Source of the DNA: Streptomyces rimosus
GTDB lineage: Bacteria > Actinomycetota > Actinomycetes > Streptomycetales > Streptomycetaceae
Direction: 5' to 3'
Length of the DNA: 64,000 nucleotides
Assembly: GCF_008704655.1 (NCBI RefSeq)
Contig: NZ_CP023688.1
Coordinates: 2,852,001 to 2,916,000 of the forward strand
Each line of letters begins with the position of its first letter. Positions within the stretch are counted from its first letter, which is position 1. The translations under genes were made by a program, and so were the position numbers. Of the stretch, positions 33,190-42,197 are shown piece after piece. The notes beneath the pieces are model-generated. The model saw only the letters and a program-made list of their open reading frames with translations, did no database searches and was not told the origin of the DNA.

Positions 33190-36100
33190 CTACGCCCCCG
33201 CCGCGCCCGGTTCCAGCGGAGAGGTGCGCTGCCGGGCGCGCGGGACCGTCTCGTTCGGCGTCTCGTACAGTCCGGTCGCCCGGTCCCAGCACGCGTGCGC
33301 CTGCTCGGCGTCCCCGGAGGCTTCGTACGCGTGTCCCAGCAAAGTGAGTCCGTCGGCCCATCGCCGGGTGTCGCCCAGCTCTTCGAAGAGCCGCACCGCG
33401 GCCCCCGCCGCCTGGACCGCGTCCTTGGCGGGGGCGACGGCGAGCAGCGACTCGGTGGTCCTGAGCTGCGTCAGGCCCGCCCAGAGCCGCTGCCCGGCCG
33501 CCTCGAAAAGGGACAGCGCCTCTTCCAGGGCCTCCAGCGCCTTCTCGTGGCCGCCCGTGCTCGCCCGGGCGACGGCGAGGAAGTACAGGGCCGTGCCGAG
33601 GCGGTGGCCCTGCCCGGCCGACCGGAAGATGCGTACGGCCCGCTCGGCGAGTTCGGCGCCCCGCTGCGGGGCACGGTCGCTTACCAACAGACGGGACCGC
33701 TCCACCAGGACCGCGGCCTCGCCGAGCCGGTCGCCCTGCACCTGACAGTGGCTCATGGCCAGGGTGAAGTGCTGTTCGGCATCGCTCCCGCCGAGCGCGA
33801 ACGCCGCCGCGCCGCGCACCAGCGGGGCGCGGCCGCTGGTCACCGGGTCGCCCGCGTCGAGCCCGAGCCGGTACGCGCGGCGGGCCTCGTCGTCCGCCCG
33901 GTCGAACCGCTCGGCCATCAGGCAGGCGCGGGCGCACGCCAGCCGGGCGCGCCCCTCGGCGCGCCGGTCGTGGTCGGCGGCGGCCCGGTCGGCCACCGCA
34001 CGCGCCGCGGCCTCGTACGGCTCCGTGTGCCGCCCCGTGCCCAGCAGCGGCGCGAGCAGGAGCAGCACGTCGGCGCCGCGGGCGGCGTGCCCGTCGGACA
34101 GCAGCTCCGCTGTCTGCCGCACCACGGACAGCGCCCCGGTGCCCTCCGCCGCCCACCAGTCCGCCGCGGCCCTGCGGTCGGCGAGACGCGGGGAGGTGAC
34201 GGAGGTGCCGGCGGCGGCGACCTGGTGCAGCAGGGGCGCGTCGGGCGCGTCGAGGGCGTACGCCCGCAGGGCCGTGACCAGGTACCAGTCCAGCAGCCGG
34301 GACAGCGCGGCGCGGCGCTCCGCCGGTGAGGTGTGGGCGGTCAGGTTCTCGTACGCGAAGGAGGCGAGCGCCTCGCGGTGCCGGTAGCGGCCCGGTGCCG
34401 GGACCTTGACCAGGCCGGTCCGCGCCAGGGTGGCCAGGTGGGCCTGGGCGTCGGCGAGGTCGGTGCCGGCCAGGGCGGCCACGGCGCTCGCGGACAGGTC
34501 GGGGCAGTCCGGCAGCGCCAGCAGCCGGAAGGCGGCGAGCGCGGGCGGGGCGAGGTCGTGGGTCAGCCGCAGCGCGGTGGCGGTGATCAGGGCCTCGGCC
34601 GCCGTACGGTCCGTCCCGCCCTCCAGCATCAGTTCCGCCGCCACCGCGTCGACCGCGGCCTCCGAGCAGCCGCACGCTTCGAGCGCCGCACGCGCCACCG
34701 AGCGGCGGGCCGCCACCCGCTCCTCCCCCACCCGTAGCGCGAGGAGTTCCAGCGCGTCGGCCGTGCTCATGGCTTCCAGATGCAGGGACAGCACCCCGGG
34801 CAGCCCGGCCGGGGGCCGGTCGCGGCCGATGACCAGCGCGGCCCCCGGCGTCTCCGGGAGCAGCGGAAGCACCGGCTCCACGTCGCGCACCTCGTCCAGG
34901 ACGACGATCAGGCGACGGCCACGGACCACCGCCCCGTAGAACGCGAGGCGTTCGGCGGGATCCTCGGGGATCTCCGCGGCCCGCAGGCCCAGTTGCCGCA
35001 GCAGCGCACCCGCCAGGTAGGCGACCGCCGCCTCCGGGTCGCCGGTCGCCGGCATGATCGCGTACAGCCGTCCGTCCGGGAAGCGTTCCTGCAGCGCGTC
35101 GGTCACCTGGGCCGCCAGGCTGGTCTTCCCGACGCCCGCGCCACCGGAGACGACGCAGGCGGTCCGCGCCGTCTCGCCCTCCCGGGCCAGGTGCTCCGTC
35201 AGCTGCCGTGCCTCGGCGCGCCGCCCGCCCGCCCGCTCCTGCCGGGGCCCGTACCGGCCGGCCCGCAGCATGCTGCGCAGGCCCGGGGAGACCGGCTCGT
35301 CGTGGGCCAGGGCGCGGGCGAGCAGTTCGCGGGTCCGCTTGCGGGCCGGGTCCAGGTAGAGCAGCCAGGTCAGCGCCTCTTCGGCGGCGGCGTGGCGGCC
35401 GAGCCGGAGTTCCGCCTCCGTACGGTCCTCGATCAGCGTGCGCCGCCAGTCGGCCAGGCGCCGGGACTCGGCGGCCAGGTACGGGCCGGACAGACCCGCC
35501 AGGGGCTCGCCGTCCCGCCACAGGGCGACGGCCGAGTCCAGCGCTTCCCAGGCGCGTTCCCAGTCGTGTGCGGCCCGCGCCTCGGCGGCCGTCGCGGCCA
35601 GTTCCTCGGCGTGGCGCAGGTCCACGACCATGTCCGTACCGCCGTACGGCCGCAGTGCGTATCCCCCGCCCTCGCTCACCAGGACGCCCGAGTCGGGGCC
35701 GAGGGCCTTGCGCAGCCGGGACGCGTACGTGCGCAGGGCCGCGGGCGCGGCGCGCGGCGGCTCGTCGCCCCACACGGCCTCGATCAGATCGGCCTCGGAG
35801 GCGGCGCGTCCACCGCGCAGCGCGAGCACGGCCAGCAGCGCCCGCTGCTGCGGGGAACCGACCGCCAGAGCCGTGTCCCCACGGTGCATCCGCACCCGCC
35901 CGAGCACGGTGATGCGCAGCGGCTCGCGCTCCGTCCGGGCCGGTGCCCCGTCCCGGGCGGACGCGTCCGCCCGCTCCGTCTCGCCCCAGCCCCACGCGCG
36001 CGCCAGCAGTTCGGCCAGGCGGGCGCGGGACGGGTACCGGGCGACCAGTTCGGCCAGCTCCGCCTGGGCCCGGGCGTAGTGGCCCAGCCGCAGGTCGGTC

Positions 36101-38388
36101 TCGATGCGGTCCTCGACCAGGGTCTGCCGCCACTCGGTCAGCCGGAGCCGTTCGGACTGCGCGTACGGGCCGGTGAGACCGCCCAGGGGCTCCCCCTGCC
36201 AGAGGCCGATGGCCGCGTCGAGCAGCGTACGGGCGCGGGCCCAGTCGCCCTCCTCGCCGGCGGCGCGGGCGGCGCGCTGGTACTCCTCGGCGCGCTCCAG
36301 GTCCACGTCGAGTTCGGTGCCGGCGTCGCCGCGCAGGGCGTAGCCGACACGCTCACGGGCCAGTATGTGTCCGTCCTCGCCGAGCGCCTTGCGCAGCCGG
36401 GCGACGCTGTGGTCCAGCGACGCGCGGGCACCGCGGGGCGGGTCGCCGCCCCAGAGGACGCCGAGCAGTTCGGCGTCGGAGGCCACGTCTTCGTGGTGCA
36501 GCAGGAGGGCCGCGAGCAGCGTGCGGTCCAGCCGGACCGGCAGCTCGATCCGCTGGTCCCCCCGCCACAGCCCCACCGGTCCGAGGAGGGTGGCGCGCAG
36601 CGGCTCGCGCGGTTCGTCGGCGGGCAGGACCGGTACGGGCGGGTGGGAGCGGACGGCGGGCTCGGCGGCTTCGTCCGGCGGCTGCGGCTCCGTATCCGTA
36701 TCGGCCGCCTCCACGGTGGCCGTGGCGTACGGCCCGGCCACCACACCGGCCTCGGACGCCCCGGCCACCGCCCCGCCGCCCAGCCGCTCCAGCACCGGGC
36801 TGGCCAGTACGGCGAACGCCTGCGCCGACTCCTGGAGCCGCAGTTCCCCGGTCTCGTCGGCGACCAGCGCGGGGAAGTCGGGCAGCCGGCCCATGTACGG
36901 CTCCAGGGCGCGGCCGACCGCCTCGACGACGGCCAGGGACTGCTGGGTGCCCAGGCCGCTGAAGAGGAGTTCGCGCACGCCGGGACGGAAGTCGTAGACC
37001 GGCTGCCCGGCACCGGCGCCCAGCAGGCCGCCGAGCGGGCCGAGGGCAGACGCCCGGCGCGGGTCGGTGACCCGTTCCAGCAGCCCGCCGAGGAGGATCT
37101 CGGCGACCTGGGTGGGCCCGGCGTCGGTCATCGTGGCGGCCCGCACCAGCTGCATCAGGGGGACGGTGAGCGGGTTGATCGCGGAGAGGCGTACGGCCAG
37201 CCGGTAGGACTCGGGCGAGAACGCGCCGCGGAAGTGGGCGACCAGCTCCTCGGCCGATCCGGCGGGCCGCGGCGGGTCCTGCTCCGGGTCCTCGCCCAGC
37301 AGCACCGTGTCCACCAGGTGCGGGACGCCGGGGCGGGTGAGCAGCGCGGTCCACTGGCCGAGCCCGCCGGGCGTCAGCGGGACCACCGGCAGCGCCACCG
37401 TCCCCGGCTCCTCGGCCTCCGGGTCCGGCTCGCCGGTCAGCGGGTCCAGGACGGTGGTCCGGTCCGGTCCGCCGAACTCGACGGGCGAGGTCAGCAGCCG
37501 GGGCTGGGCGTCCAGCGCGGTGCCGCGCCACAGCCGCCGCGGCAGGGGGTGGAGCACCGCCACCGGTCCGTACCGCCCCCAGCCGCGCACCGCGCGCGCC
37601 GCGTCGGGGGTCCGCCACCCGGGGCTCGTGCCGTCGGTGAGGACGAACGTCAGCGTGGGGCCCGCGACCCACGGCAGCCGCCCCGGGACGGCCATCTTCC
37701 GGGGGTCGAGGGCGCACACGCGGACGCTCCGGAAGATGCCGCTGCGGTCCAGCACCGCGCGCAGTTCGCCGGCCAGCTGGCTCCACACCTGCATCGAGGG
37801 CGCGTCGTCCACCAACAGCACGGCGGACCAGCGGTGTTCGAGGTCCGGCCGGGACACCACGTCGAACAGCGCGGTCTCCGCGGCGAGCCGTACGGTCGCC
37901 TCCACGTCGGTGACGCGCCGGTGCGGGTGCGGCTGGAACCGGCGCAGCGGGCGCAGCGCGCGGGACAGGTGCTGGGGTCGGGCGAGGGCGCGGCGGCCCG
38001 GCGCCCGCGCGGGGCGTGCGCGGCGGCTGCGCGCGCTGCCGCCCTCGCTGCCCATCGCGTACAGGGAGCGCTGCGACGGCAGGACGGTGGCGCGGTCGCC
38101 GCCCGGCGCCGCTTCGGCCCCGTCGGTCTCCTGCTCGCTCCGCGCCGTATCCGGGCCTTCCGTTCCCCCGTCCTCCGCGCCTGTCTCCGCCGTGCCCTCC
38201 GCCGTCGGCTCCGTGCCCCCGTCATCGCTCCCGGGCGGGCCCGCGTCCGCCCGGGACTCCTCCTCGGCCGCGGCCTGCCGCCGCTCCCCCTCGCGCACCG
38301 CGCGGGCCAGCCACAGGACGTCCAGCAGCTCGTGCGCCCCCAGGTCGTAGCCCTGCCCGGCGAGGACCTGCCGCAGCCGGTCGATCAT
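33190..38388 (-). CDS. vWA-like/double-SARP/NB-ARC/TPR regulator, 1732 residues
   Basis: The ATG at 38388 overlaps the MoxR stop (ATGA), so the two are coupled; an open frame continues upstream but overlaps MoxR in another phase and is rejected. Order: short helical start; disordered Glu/Asp/Gly-rich stretch (~45-110); vWA-like domain resembling the 'SAV_2336 N-terminal' family (~150-450, with LLVDDAPSMQVW at ~193, an altered MIDAS); first OmpR-type DNA-binding domain plus BTAD (~594-800, DSVARLRKAL-type wing); second DNA-binding domain plus BTAD (~823-1027, LRITVLGRVRMHRGD ... YASRLRKALG); NB-ARC NTPase (Walker A SGGAGVGKTSLAAQV ~1083, Walker B RRLIVVLDEVRD ~1163); winged helix; TPR tail (~1430-1713). 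The last part equals AfsR in layout (one SARP module, ~1000 residues). Likely a signal-gated transcription activator. Confidence 0.88.
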   Translation of the reverse strand: MIDRLRQVLAGQGYDLGAHELLDVLWLARAVREGERRQAAAEEESRADAGPPGSDDGGTEPTAEGTAETGAEDGGTEGPDTARSEQETDGAEAAPGGDRATVLPSQRSLYAMGSEGGSARSRRARPARAPGRRALARPQHLSRALRPLRRFQPHPHRRVTDVEATVRLAAETALFDVVSRPDLEHRWSAVLLVDDAPSMQVWSQLAGELRAVLDRSGIFRSVRVCALDPRKMAVPGRLPWVAGPTLTFVLTDGTSPGWRTPDAARAVRGWGRYGPVAVLHPLPRRLWRGTALDAQPRLLTSPVEFGGPDRTTVLDPLTGEPDPEAEEPGTVALPVVPLTPGGLGQWTALLTRPGVPHLVDTVLLGEDPEQDPPRPAGSAEELVAHFRGAFSPESYRLAVRLSAINPLTVPLMQLVRAATMTDAGPTQVAEILLGGLLERVTDPRRASALGPLGGLLGAGAGQPVYDFRPGVRELLFSGLGTQQSLAVVEAVGRALEPYMGRLPDFPALVADETGELRLQESAQAFAVLASPVLERLGGGAVAGASEAGVVAGPYATATVEAADTDTEPQPPDEAAEPAVRSHPPVPVLPADEPREPLRATLLGPVGLWRGDQRIELPVRLDRTLLAALLLHHEDVASDAELLGVLWGGDPPRGARASLDHSVARLRKALGEDGHILARERVGYALRGDAGTELDVDLERAEEYQRAARAAGEEGDWARARTLLDAAIGLWQGEPLGGLTGPYAQSERLRLTEWRQTLVEDRIETDLRLGHYARAQAELAELVARYPSRARLAELLARAWGWGETERADASARDGAPARTEREPLRITVLGRVRMHRGDTALAVGSPQQRALLAVLALRGGRAASEADLIEAVWGDEPPRAAPAALRTYASRLRKALGPDSGVLVSEGGGYALRPYGGTDMVVDLRHAEELAATAAEARAAHDWERAWEALDSAVALWRDGEPLAGLSGPYLAAESRRLADWRRTLIEDRTEAELRLGRHAAAEEALTWLLYLDPARKRTRELLARALAHDEPVSPGLRSMLRAGRYGPRQERAGGRRAEARQLTEHLAREGETARTACVVSGGAGVGKTSLAAQVTDALQERFPDGRLYAIMPATGDPEAAVAYLAGALLRQLGLRAAEIPEDPAERLAFYGAVVRGRRLIVVLDEVRDVEPVLPLLPETPGAALVIGRDRPPAGLPGVLSLHLEAMSTADALELLALRVGEERVAARRSVARAALEACGCSEAAVDAVAAELMLEGGTDRTAAEALITATALRLTHDLAPPALAAFRLLALPDCPDLSASAVAALAGTDLADAQAHLATLARTGLVKVPAPGRYRHREALASFAYENLTAHTSPAERRAALSRLLDWYLVTALRAYALDAPDAPLLHQVAAAGTSVTSPRLADRRAAADWWAAEGTGALSVVRQTAELLSDGHAARGADVLLLLAPLLGTGRHTEPYEAAARAVADRAAADHDRRAEGRARLACARACLMAERFDRADDEARRAYRLGLDAGDPVTSGRAPLVRGAAAFALGGSDAEQHFTLAMSHCQVQGDRLGEAAVLVERSRLLVSDRAPQRGAELAERAVRIFRSAGQGHRLGTALYFLAVARASTGGHEKALEALEEALSLFEAAGQRLWAGLTQLRTTESLLAVAPAKDAVQAAGAAVRLFEELGDTRRWADGLTLLGHAYEASGDAEQAHACWDRATGLYETPNETVPRARQRTSPLEPGAAGA

Positions 38389-39443
38389 GGCGACATGGGT
38401 TCGTCCAGGCGGTGCATGACCGCGGAGAGCAGCTCGTCCTTGGTCAGGTCGGCACCCGTGATCCGCAGATGGACCGCGGCCAGCAGCTGGTCGGTCGCCA
38501 GCGTCTCGGTCTTGGAACGCTGGAAGAAGCCGTCGATCAGGTCCTCGGCCTCGGCGAGCGCGGCCGGGCCCAGGTTGTGGGCGATGATGTCGCGCAGCCG
38601 CTCGGGCGTCGGGTCGGGCAGGTCCAGGCGGACACAGCGGCGCAGGAAGGCGGGCGGGAACTCCCGCTCGCCGTTGCTCGTCATCACCACGACCGGGAAG
38701 TGCGCGCAGGAGACGACGCCGCGGTGCACGCGCACCCGCTCCCGGCTGCCGTCGGTCAGCACATGCACGTCCTGGTGCTGCTCGGACAGCCGGGCCAGCT
38801 CCGGGATCTCGAACTCGCCCTCCTCCAGGACCACCAGCAGGTCGTTGGGCAGGTCGATGTCGGACTTGTCCAGCTCGTCGACGAGCAGCACCCGCGGCCG
38901 GTCGGTGGCGGCCAGCGCCGTGCCCAGCGGTCCCAGGCGCAGATAGTGGCCGATGTCGGTGGTGAAGGCGCCGCGGTGGTCCTTGAGGCGGCGCGGTGCC
39001 GTACGGGCGGCATCCCGCTCGCGGCGCAGCGACGCCTCGCGCAGCCGGCCCACCGCGTCGTAGCGGTAGAGCGCGTCGGCGAGGGTGGAGCGACTGTTGA
39101 CGGACCAGCGCAGCACGTCGCCGAGGCCCAGCTCGGCGGCGATGGCGCGGGCCAGCGAGCTCTTGCCGGTGCCGGGGCGGCCGGTGACCAGCAGCGGGCG
39201 GTGCAGGTGGAGGGCGGCGTTGACGACGGACACCTCGTTGCGGTCCATCAGATACGGCGCGGGCGCCTCGGGCCTCCTGCGCGCGGCGGCGAAGTAGCGC
39301 CACGGGGGCGCCGCGGGCAGCGGCGCGGGACCGCGGAACACCCACCAGCCCTCGGGCTCCGGCCCGGCTCCCGGGCCGTGGTCGGGTGTGCTCTCTCGGG
39401 CCACGGGTCGTTCTCCTTCGTCCTTGCTCACTTGCTGCGTCAC
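38385..39443 (-). CDS. MoxR-family AAA+ ATPase
   Basis: The GTG at 39443 overlaps the upstream stop (GTGA); 352 residues. Walker A TGRPGTGKSSLARAIA (~88), the MoxR-type WSVNSRSTLADALYRYDAVGRL, Walker B PRVLLVDELDKSDIDLPND (~188), sensor 1 VVVMTSNGEREFPPAFLRRC, with the arginine finger in it. MoxR ATPases work with vWA proteins as chaperone-like partners; here the vWA-like domain is on the very next gene, which overlaps by four bases. The trypsin/VMAP-like gene is upstream, so this is the NTPase of a vWA-MoxR-VMAP ternary set. Confidence 0.92.
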   Translation of the reverse strand: MTQQVSKDEGERPVARESTPDHGPGAGPEPEGWWVFRGPAPLPAAPPWRYFAAARRRPEAPAPYLMDRNEVSVVNAALHLHRPLLVTGRPGTGKSSLARAIAAELGLGDVLRWSVNSRSTLADALYRYDAVGRLREASLRRERDAARTAPRRLKDHRGAFTTDIGHYLRLGPLGTALAATDRPRVLLVDELDKSDIDLPNDLLVVLEEGEFEIPELARLSEQHQDVHVLTDGSRERVRVHRGVVSCAHFPVVVMTSNGEREFPPAFLRRCVRLDLPDPTPERLRDIIAHNLGPAALAEAEDLIDGFFQRSKTETLATDQLLAAVHLRITGADLTKDELLSAVMHRLDEPMSP

Positions 39444-41692
39444 GGCTGGGTCAGGACCCAGGCGTCCGGGGCCAGTTGCGGTGGCCGGTGGTCGGGCGCG
39501 TCGTACATCAGGGACAGCTGCCGTCCCCGGTGGTGCGTCGAGGCGGCCTCGGCGACCGCCTTGGCCCGCTCCAGGCGCACCGTCTCGGGCAGCTGGGTGT
39601 GGTGCCCGCCCTCGACCAGTTCGAGCAGGCCCGCGGCGATGTTCTCGCCGTGCTCCTCGCGGTGCCACAGGACGGTGTGCACGCCCGCCTGGACGCACTG
39701 GCGCAGCAGCGTCCCGTGGTGGCGCGGCTCGCAGCACACGATCACCGTGCCCACCTCGGGCTGCATCTCCAGCCGGGCGCGGGCCACCTTGCGGTCGGTG
39801 GCACCGTGGTCCAGGACCAGGCTGCGGGCGCCGTCCAGGGCGGCGGTGCGCCGCTTCCACCCGGCGTAGCTCTCGCGGGAGCGCCGGGCGGTGCGGATCA
39901 CCACCCGGCGCGTGAACCCCAGTTCGAAGGGGCCGTCCTCGTCGCTGTCGAAGGACTCCCAGCGGTCCACCGGCAGGCCGAGCCAGGCGGCGGGCAGGAA
40001 GAACTCGACGAGCGCGGGCTCGGGGTCCTCACGGATCTCGTTGACCAGGACGCGGTGGATGTCGTCCACGACCTGTTCGCTGGTCACCTCCGCGTCCTGG
40101 GCGAGGACGAGGACGTGCGGGGCGTCGCCGCCGCTCCAGGCCCACACCTGGTACGTGAAGTGCCGCCCGGTGGCGGCGGGCAGCAGCTCCACCTGGACGC
40201 GGGGCACCTTCGACAGCCGTGTGCCGTTGCGGTGCGCGGCCGGGGCCGTGCCGTTCGGCCGGGGCATCATGGTCACGGCGGCGCTGCCGACCCCCGCCCA
40301 GCTGCCCGCCCGCTGCTCGTGGTGACCGCGGGCGGCGGCCCGGTGCTCCGTCGCGACGGCCCGCGCGCGCTCGGCGTGGTGGTCCCGCACATCGGCCGTG
40401 TACTGCCGTACGGCGGCCAGGTCCACCCCGAGCCGGGCGGCGGCGCGCTGCGCCCAGGCCGCCAGGTCCTCGGCCAGGTCCGGGCCCGCCTCGCTCTCCT
40501 CCACACCGATGCGCACCACGCCCTGGAGCAGCGGCGGCATCAGCTGGTCGCCCGGGGCGTCGTACCCCTCCAGGACGTCGAGGGCGTCGGCCAGGCCGGT
40601 CACCGCGGGCAGTTCGATGGCGTGCGGCAGGACGGTGTCCAGCAATGCGCGGGGGTCCGTGCGGACGCACTGTGCCAGCAGGCCGGTCAGGCCGCGCCGC
40701 TGGCCGTGGGTCAGGCACTCGCCGGGGCTGACCGTGCGGGCCACCTTGCGCAGCCGCTCCCACTGCGGGCCGCTGCCGTCCGGCGCCACTTCGCGTACGG
40801 CCTGGAGGAGTTCGGGCACGCCGCGCCGGACGCCCACGGCCAGGCCGACCAGCCGGTCGAGGTCGGCGCCGAGGCCGCGGGACGGGCGTCCCAGCCGGGA
40901 GGCGAGCAGCTCCTCGCAGCGGCGGACCAGGTCCGGGGTGGTCAGTACGGTCTCCAGCACGGCCAGCAGCTGCTGGACGCCGCGCCGGGCGGTGGGCACC
41001 ACGGGCGGCGGCAGGTCGGGCAGTTCGGCCTCGATGGCGGGGATGCTGATCGCGTACAGCGTGGCGGCGGCCGGGGGCCGGTTCGCCGTGCGGGCGCCGG
41101 CCGCGGTCTGGAGGTCGGCCACCACGATGCCGACGACGGCCTGCCGCTCGCGGTCCCACAGCGGCCCGCCGCTGAAGCCCTCCTTGACCTCCGTGCCGCC
41201 CACCACGTCCAGCGCCACCCAGGGCGGCGCGGAGACCCGGGGCACCGCGCGCACGGTGGGCAGCGGGTGGCCGCTGGCCCACAGGGCGATGACCTCGTTG
41301 CCGTAGGCGTGCGAGAGGAAGGGGGCCGGTTCGGCGCCGGTGGGCGCGGGGCCCGGAAGCCGGAGTGCGGCCAGGTCGCCGTGGTAGAGCAGCGCGCCGG
41401 GCGGCACGGACCCGCTGCCGCCCGGCGCACGCGGCGGGCTCCACATGGCGGGGTCGACCTGTGCGGTCAGCTCGCGGTCGGGCGCGACGTGCGGCAGCCG
41501 GAGACGGACGGTGTGGCCCGGCCCCGGCAACGCCTGCTCGTAACGGTCCCGGCCCAGCGCGCTGTTGACGACGTGCGCGCAGGTCAGTACGAGATCGTCG
41601 CTGACCAGCACGCCCGCGCCGACGGCCCGTCCGTCGCCGCGGACCGATACGAAGGAGCGGTACAGCGGCTGATCCACGCCGGACACCACCAC
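39440..41692 (-). CDS. trypsin-like peptidase fused to VMAP-type C-terminus
   Basis: Starts at GTG 41692 with GAGGA five bases upstream; 750 residues. The serine-protease domain (~1-215) has the whole triad: TCAHVV (His ~40), HGDLAALRL (Asp ~106), GFSGGPLW (Ser ~174), with no signal peptide, so it acts inside the cell. A helical region follows (~220-400: LLAVLETVLTTPDLVRRCEEL..., then RKVARTVSPGECLTHGQRRGL), resembling the helical middle of VMAP proteins. The C-terminal ~280 residues (VQVELLPAATGRHFTYQVWAW ... VEFFLPAAWLGLPVDRWE ... VIVCCEPRH) match my memory of the VMAP-C domain. A sensor-triggered protease is the likely effector; targets unknown. Confidence 0.85.
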   Translation of the reverse strand: MVVSGVDQPLYRSFVSVRGDGRAVGAGVLVSDDLVLTCAHVVNSALGRDRYEQALPGPGHTVRLRLPHVAPDRELTAQVDPAMWSPPRAPGGSGSVPPGALLYHGDLAALRLPGPAPTGAEPAPFLSHAYGNEVIALWASGHPLPTVRAVPRVSAPPWVALDVVGGTEVKEGFSGGPLWDRERQAVVGIVVADLQTAAGARTANRPPAAATLYAISIPAIEAELPDLPPPVVPTARRGVQQLLAVLETVLTTPDLVRRCEELLASRLGRPSRGLGADLDRLVGLAVGVRRGVPELLQAVREVAPDGSGPQWERLRKVARTVSPGECLTHGQRRGLTGLLAQCVRTDPRALLDTVLPHAIELPAVTGLADALDVLEGYDAPGDQLMPPLLQGVVRIGVEESEAGPDLAEDLAAWAQRAAARLGVDLAAVRQYTADVRDHHAERARAVATEHRAAARGHHEQRAGSWAGVGSAAVTMMPRPNGTAPAAHRNGTRLSKVPRVQVELLPAATGRHFTYQVWAWSGGDAPHVLVLAQDAEVTSEQVVDDIHRVLVNEIREDPEPALVEFFLPAAWLGLPVDRWESFDSDEDGPFELGFTRRVVIRTARRSRESYAGWKRRTAALDGARSLVLDHGATDRKVARARLEMQPEVGTVIVCCEPRHHGTLLRQCVQAGVHTVLWHREEHGENIAAGLLELVEGGHHTQLPETVRLERAKAVAEAASTHHRGRQLSLMYDAPDHRPPQLAPDAWVLTQP

Positions 41693-41699
41693 GCCGTCC

Positions 41700-42122
41700 T
41701 CAGGTCGTACTGCCGCTGCCGGTGTTCCAGGTGGCGGAGACCTTGAAGCTGGCCTCGCCGTTGCCGGAGAAGACCCCCAGGCTCAGGTCCGAGCCGAGGG
41801 TGACCCCGAACTCCACCGTGACCTCGTCCGGCCGGTGATCCCCGTTGGCCAGCGAGCGGTGGATGCTGCCCAGGACGGAGCCGAGCGGGCGCAGCGCGCC
41901 CTCCAGCGCCTCGCCGCCCCGGGTCAGCGCCCGGGCGACCCGTCCGTCCACGCTGACCGGCCGGGCGCTGCCGTAGCCGTCGGGCAGTTCCAGCTCCCCG
42001 TCGTCGGGCTTTGCGGCCGACGCCCCGTCGGGCAGCGCCTGGCCGCCCGCGCCGGTCGGTGTCAAGTGCAGCCAGACGACCGTGTCTTCGTCGATGCTCA
42101 GTGGCAGTGGCATGTCCCCCAT
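41700..42122 (-). CDS. Trypco1-type (CU044_2847-like) small protein
   Basis: First gene of the four-gene operon; 140 residues, ending seven bases before the peptidase start. The C-terminal half has the family pattern: helix ALEGALRPLGSVLGSIHRSL, then DEVTVEFGVTLGSDLSLGVF and a final strand EASFKVSATW. This trypsin-co-occurring domain is named for its usual place beside trypsin-fused effectors, as here; it probably binds or tethers the peptidase. A second ATG (MPLPLSIDED) starts three codons later. No Shine-Dalgarno; CAGACT lies six bases before ATG 42122, so the operon message may be leaderless. Confidence 0.8.
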   Translation of the reverse strand: MGDMPLPLSIDEDTVVWLHLTPTGAGGQALPDGASAAKPDDGELELPDGYGSARPVSVDGRVARALTRGGEALEGALRPLGSVLGSIHRSLANGDHRPDEVTVEFGVTLGSDLSLGVFSGNGEASFKVSATWNTGSGSTT

Positions 42123-42197
42123 GTGATCAGTCTGGCACGTCGCCCTGGCCTGCGCGCCCCCTTTGGAACAGGCGGTTCGCGCGGGCGCCTCCGGCGG

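Follow-up and report, generated by a model that had tools for sequence, protein, structure and literature searches.

The closest described systems are the VMAP-type vWA-MoxR ternary conflict systems, which the main text of Kaur et al. (2020; PMC7159879) defines by the gene order VMAP, MoxR and vWA, by the VMAP-C domain and by effectors that vary at the C-terminus of the vWA component. According to the same text, STAND NTPases and related apoptosis-type domains are present in about 33% of the systems, some effectors of the vWA component are HTH or wHTH domains, AP-ATPase effectors also occur, and the diagnostic N-terminal motifs of the MoxR protein are WxhapG and PsWRxa. Such systems are widespread in multicellular bacteria, and their action against invaders is described as a prediction rather than an experimental result (PMC7159879). 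The words SARP, AfsR and BTAD are absent from that main text, taken without figures and supplements. The second point of comparison is AfsR, the large SARP of Streptomyces coelicolor, with the domain order SARP-NB-ARC-TPR. Its NOD and TPR parts are reported to inhibit the SARP until ATP binds, and the DNA contacts Q48, W74, P79, T88, R94 and K95 are called highly conserved in the text concerned (PMC10936776). A vWA fold with a MoxR-type partner is also found in NorQ/NorD and Rea1/MDN1, for which the source passages give metal insertion or ribosome assembly and name no SARP or protease part.

The window, a stretch of 64,000 nucleotides from the Streptomyces rimosus genome, contains an operon of four genes on the minus strand with the following features.

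41700..42122, minus strand: Trypco1 protein, 140 aa (PF19493, 63.9 bits; NF041216, 48.6 bits)
39440..41692, minus strand: VMAP component (trypsin-like protease, VMAP-M0 and VMAP-C), 750 aa (Pfam; triad H40/D106/S174)
41126..41620, minus strand: trypsin-like peptidase domain, aa 25-189 of the VMAP component (PF13365, 30.9 bits)
40421..40711, minus strand: VMAP-M0 region, aa 328-424 (PF19916, 32.2 bits)
39494..40162, minus strand: VMAP-C domain, aa 511-733 (PF20028, 135.9 bits; genome search)
38385..39404, minus strand: MoxR AAA+ ATPase, 339 aa (AAA_5, 32.3 bits; motifs WWVFRG and PPWRYF; Walker A/B)
33190..38388, minus strand: vWA component with SARP-SARP-NB-ARC-TPR effector, 1732 aa (profile searches)
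36889..38337, minus strand: SAV_2336_NTERM region (N-extension, vWA, C-extension), aa 18-500 (NF041121, 334 bits; MIDAS vWA fold match)
36607..36753, minus strand: low-complexity, length-variable linker between vWA part and SARP1, aa 546-594 (pair identity 0.51; REPL motif)
35995..36606, minus strand: SARP1, aa 595-798 (Trans_reg_C/BTAD; several AfsR DNA-contact residues altered)
35299..35922, minus strand: SARP2, aa 823-1030 (AfsR chains 8hvr/8k60; AfsR DNA-contact residues retained)
34633..35226, minus strand: NB-ARC ATPase, aa 1055-1252 (PF00931, 26.1 bits; Walker A GGAGVGKT)
33253..34068, minus strand: TPR region, aa 1441-1712 (TPR_12, TPR_1, TPR_8, SNAP)
42123..42165, minus strand: conserved intergenic block 5' of Trypco1 (alignment of four orthologues)

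The VMAP, MoxR and vWA genes lie on one strand in the class-defining order. The VMAP-C score is far above the Pfam cut-off of 27, the triad of the VMAP protease and the Walker A/B motifs of MoxR are intact, and both N-terminal motifs of VMAP-system MoxR proteins have their counterparts. For the MoxR gene, an alternative GTG start is possible at 39443. Trypco1 adjoins a trypsin-type VMAP, as the class predicts for Trypco1 or Trypco2. In the vWA part, the metal-site aspartates D194 and D252 are invariant in an alignment of 40 sequences; in one of 55 sequences, D252 is invariant and D194 is present in at least 90%. The N-extension conserves E20, D23 and W26 in the alignment, with a spacing unlike that of the motif [D/E]xxx[D/E]xxxa. 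The fold of the vWA part matches MIDAS vWA domains structurally; in the Foldseek search no vWA match fell below E 0.001, the top match being NorD (E 0.014). The VMAP component had no match among PDB sequences, and the PADLOC profiles matched neither the vWA protein nor Trypco1 at E 0.1. The variable effector lies 3' of the vWA C-extension, and paralogous systems of one genome end in different C-termini. The first-pass annotation had reported a Trypco1-like protein, a trypsin-VMAP protein, a MoxR ATPase and an AfsR-like SARP-NB-ARC-TPR part behind a vWA-like start, and had assigned the genes to the vWA-MoxR-VMAP class. The profile searches recovered all of these, including the two regions named there as decisive, the C-terminus of the VMAP component and residues 150-450 of the vWA protein. 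Judged by gene and domain content, the operon belongs to the VMAP-type vWA-MoxR ternary conflict systems, with a predicted role in defence.

The conserved block before Trypco1 contains the hexamer CAGACT, 6 bases 5' of the ATG, which suggests a candidate -10 element of a leaderless promoter. A consensus search gave no match to a sigma-70 promoter or to a terminator. At L084-L086, three further systems described below, GAGACT or GAAACT stands 6 or 7 bases before the Trypco1 ATG.

With the systems of Kaur et al., as their main text presents them, the operon shares gene order, VMAP-C, VMAP-M0, trypsin, Trypco1, the MoxR motifs and a vWA component with an effector; it differs in the effector itself, a doubled SARP with an AfsR-like NB-ARC-TPR part. 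With AfsR it shares the SARP-NB-ARC-TPR order, the fold of 8hvr/8k60 and, in SARP2, the DNA contacts. A two-SARP query matched the AfsR chains 8hvr and 8k60 with E-values of 2.5e-49 and 1.3e-47, and the SARP fold gave a TM score of 0.80 against 8hvr by target length. SARP2 has an OmpR-type DNA-binding part and a BTAD, and an NB-ARC with Walker A is followed by TPRs. Unlike AfsR, the protein has two SARPs and an N-terminal vWA component, so that no SARP stands at the N-terminus, and it is encoded in an operon with a protease and MoxR. Its score against the AfsR equivalog NF053617 is 685 bits, which is below the cut-off of 1430.

The first-pass annotation knew of no described example of this fusion, and had cast the vWA protein as a sensor partner. 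A one-of-a-kind fusion is ruled out: variable effectors are known for the class (PMC7159879, main text), and SARPs are present in 72 of the 120 nearest relatives of the vWA region (the best 120 of 225 homologues), 22 with two SARPs and 50 with one. The protein of the window is an additional two-SARP member outside the 22. In a less biased sample of 41 genomes, the vWA family was found in 28, and SARPs in 8 of its 55 vWA loci (54 fetched loci plus the window, some truncated by contig ends), four of which have two. The other two-SARP systems of this sample (L084, L085 and L086) consist of the same four genes as that of the window. Pfam searches on the 54 other loci gave TPR, NB-ARC, kinase, HAD, helicase, TIR and CHAT domains and more. 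Given the variable C-terminal effectors described for it (PMC7159879, main text), the vWA component is better seen as an adaptor plus effector than as a sensor. Sources already label such proteins 'SAV_2336 N-terminal domain-related', and no paper describing a vWA-SARP fusion or a tandem SARP was found in the open-licence literature, searched without figures and supplements. The class itself is known, and databases already carry names for vWA-SARP proteins. Newly noted here are the retention of contacts in SARP2 as opposed to SARP1, the separate origins of two SARP tandems, and the finding that none of 50 single-SARP relatives keeps all six contacts.

Several other vWA loci deviate from this arrangement. 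Two two-SARP vWA proteins (P0097 and P0104) match PF01011, PF13360 and PF13570, which we take to be PQQ-type repeats, and gave no NB-ARC match. A further group of vWA proteins, of kinase-SARP make-up (L063 and L069), lies beside trypsin-type VMAPs; L063 also has a HAD hydrolase domain, and SARPs occur in L056 and L066 as well. The vWA-family loci L099-L103 match only positions of about 140-473 of the profile, and no MoxR was found in the sequence fetched around them, which for L100 is a short contig. The genome of the window (9,361,154 bases) encodes another VMAP system at a distance of about 0.28 Mb (L067, G000:C1:3166637-3170206); for its vWA protein, Pfam gave no family at E 0.001, and no SARP was matched either.

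Two-SARP vWA proteins form two clades, A (n = 16, window's protein included) and B (n = 7). In a tree of 42 SARP modules, SARP1 and SARP2 of clade A are sisters (99/93), which marks the pair as an internal duplication; the modules of clade B are placed elsewhere. AU tests rejected a common origin for the first SARPs of the two clades (p 5e-5) and for their second SARPs (p 3e-6). Free-standing two-SARP NB-ARC-TPR regulators of 1177-1283 aa (for example P0126, P0129 and P0131) resemble the window's protein in having two SARPs, the second AfsR-like in its contacts; they differ in that the first SARP starts at residues 1-5, with no vWA component. They sit apart in the tree. When they were added, A with B was again rejected (p 0.01), and first SARPs as one clade with the free-standing set gave p 0.088 for B and p 0.066 for A, so that one origin with either clade is not rejected at 0.05. 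Three tandem origins, at which the tree hints, are without AU support. The only grouping rejected is that of A with B; on this phylogenetic evidence the two vWA clades obtained their tandems separately, and B may have acquired one that already existed.

Four rimosus-group genomes (that of the window, CB02923, S. monomycini and S. rimosus WC-3904, in the last of which the site is spread over two contigs) carry the operon with the same neighbours. Of 22 other genomes of the genus that match the flanking thioesterase, 21 have the match to the flanking class V aminotransferase on that contig too, the exception being G022 with the two on different contigs. In the 21 genomes the flanks are 36 to 6,537 bases apart (under 160 in four), compared with 9,915 bases in the window. 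This difference shows the operon to be an insertion at a variable spot between core genes, which bears out the accessory insertion proposed earlier. Next to L084-L086, which also have two SARPs, these flanking genes were not found.

Our preferred reading, which we hold tentatively and at somewhat less than even confidence, is that a VMAP ternary system has captured, as its effector, an AfsR-type STAND transcription activator with an internal duplication, gated as follows. At rest, MoxR and VMAP would keep the vWA protein in a complex. On a trigger, perceived by VMAP/Trypco1 or else at the TPR end, the MoxR ATPase would remodel this complex, and the trypsin-like VMAP may then cleave the flexible linker ahead of SARP1. 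Once freed or opened, the SARP-SARP-NB-ARC-TPR part would take up ATP on the NB-ARC, and SARP2 would bind promoters and recruit RNA polymerase as AfsR does. The order from remodelling through cutting or opening and ATP uptake to SARP2 is proposed because inhibition by NOD and TPR ends on ATP binding in AfsR.

Evidence for the activator reading lies in the DNA-contact residues and in the P-loop of the NB-ARC, which is kept in 16/16 clade A proteins. SARP2 keeps all six AfsR contacts in 16/16 clade A and 6/7 clade B proteins, while the first SARP keeps all six in none (0/16 and 0/7). SARP1 of the window retains only W74, P79, R94 and K95 and is unlike AfsR at S46, Q48, R87, T88 and S91; because of these changes it can hardly read DNA as AfsR does. 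In clade A SARP2, the BTAD differs from AfsR at the position matching L211 and, in most proteins, at that matching E213, which speaks against a complete likeness; SARP2 of the window has acidic residues at the sigma-touching AfsR positions 68, 71, 76 and 77. A search with the two-SARP region gave 1081 matches, of which the best 120 were taken (101 new). Among these best 120, all six contacts were found in the second SARP of 11/11 further two-SARP proteins and in the first of 0/11, as well as in 85/86 single-SARP proteins, a biased yardstick since matches were picked by likeness to the window's SARP pair; four further matches that module cutting split into three pieces were left out. Two of these 11 are related to vWA proteins: P0127 is itself of the vWA type, and P0125 (S. 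chrestomyceticus, 1180 aa) belongs to clade A and is annotated from inside the linker without a vWA part, which may reflect start choice or a broken frame. The earlier proposal that a trigger would switch gene expression thus gains support from residue conservation for SARP2 only; the search for a target promoter or gene of the SARP effector yielded none.

SARP1 is not a decaying relic in clade A. Pair identity (counted without the partial protein P0019) is 0.914 for vWA, 0.865 for the DNA-binding part of SARP1, the highest value among the four SARP pieces, and 0.800 for that of SARP2. This strong conservation argues that SARP1 is in use, and it presumably has another job, possibly in contacting a protein or in providing a second DNA specificity.

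The linker before SARP1 ranges from 36 to 136 aa in clade A and is variable in sequence between conserved flanks. It is poor in R and K, presumably disordered, and lies outside the structure models. The motif REPL is present at the SARP1 junction in 16/16 clade A proteins (REPLR in 15/16; R594 in the window) and before SARP2 in 14/16. The REPL/R594 junction is a candidate cut site; the motif may also just mark where the SARP fold begins. Trypsin-type VMAPs were found in 8/8 SARP-bearing systems (the window and seven loci, L085 just under the Pfam cut-off) and in 22/38 other frames (one-sided p 0.022). Only 32 of the 38 match the VMAP-C profile and the systems compared are related; under strict counting, with 22/32 frames with a VMAP-C match (p 0.076) or 21/29 by a local profile (p 0.11), the link is not significant. 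Trypsin-type VMAPs are common anyway, so the association does not support cleavage. The more specific version, in which a MoxR/vWA-gated trypsin cuts the linker and frees an anchored, latent transcription factor for an immune-type expression programme, is put forward as a rather doubtful possibility. It would make the effector a covalent SARP pair, with one half reading DNA and the other rebuilt for another contact.

Signal flow could also run the other way, with the NB-ARC-TPR end as sensor, the VMAP trypsin as output and the SARPs autoregulating the operon or serving as scaffold. The text of PMC10907252 proposes this opposite direction for other VMAP systems, namely DGR-diversified ones whose vWA protein bears variable lectin domains. 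The intact protease triad is in line with it, as is the TPR region, which has the lowest identity of the folded parts compared (0.732), as a sensor might. An idle scaffold, however, would not explain why SARP2 contacts are kept in 22/23 two-SARP vWA proteins and lost in single-SARP ones, and other vWA proteins of the sample carry effector-like helicase, kinase, TIR, HAD or CHAT parts. We regard reverse flow as unlikely.

The C-terminal half could instead be a STAND assembly or decoy effector that oligomerises or binds invader or host proteins, with SARPs that bind polymerase or DNA without activating genes. The main text of Kaur et al. (PMC7159879) favours effector release, assembly or decoy, describes STAND effectors as more apoptotic-like, proposes assembly or decoy for them and notes inactive effector domains. 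All six contacts are kept in 0/50 single-SARP vWA relatives, so SARP activity appears dispensable there. The basic pair 94/95 is lost in 35 of these 50, all 35 with a P-loop, and kept in 15 (P-loop in 6/15); this alternation may amount to two or three events only, because the tree shows few clades. SARP1 contacts are altered in 23/23 two-SARP vWA proteins. The six SARP2 contacts kept in 22 of the same 23, and the acidic sigma-contact positions of the window's SARP2, speak against a mere decoy, which we likewise consider improbable. DNA contacts are kept in two-SARP proteins and not in their single-SARP relatives, a pattern compatible with either direction of the signal.

An ordinary developmental or antibiotic signalling switch that reuses VMAP machinery would suit the use of SARPs mainly as antibiotic activators (PMC10972967, in the text concerned) and the single site in four rimosus-group genomes, but we rate it as very unlikely: the family's variable effectors, the genome's other VMAP system with its different C-terminus and the insertion at a variable spot all fit accessory conflict systems better.

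For the activator reading, the SARP effector offers a readable output through promoters, RNA-seq and ChIP, so that the order of MoxR, protease and effector can be tested directly in a genus amenable to genetics. The recurrent combination of a divergent first SARP and an AfsR-like second SARP raises the question of how SARP pairs work. If release by the protease is true, infection would set off a programme of gene expression in the cell, broadly as with the protease-released transcription factors of animals.
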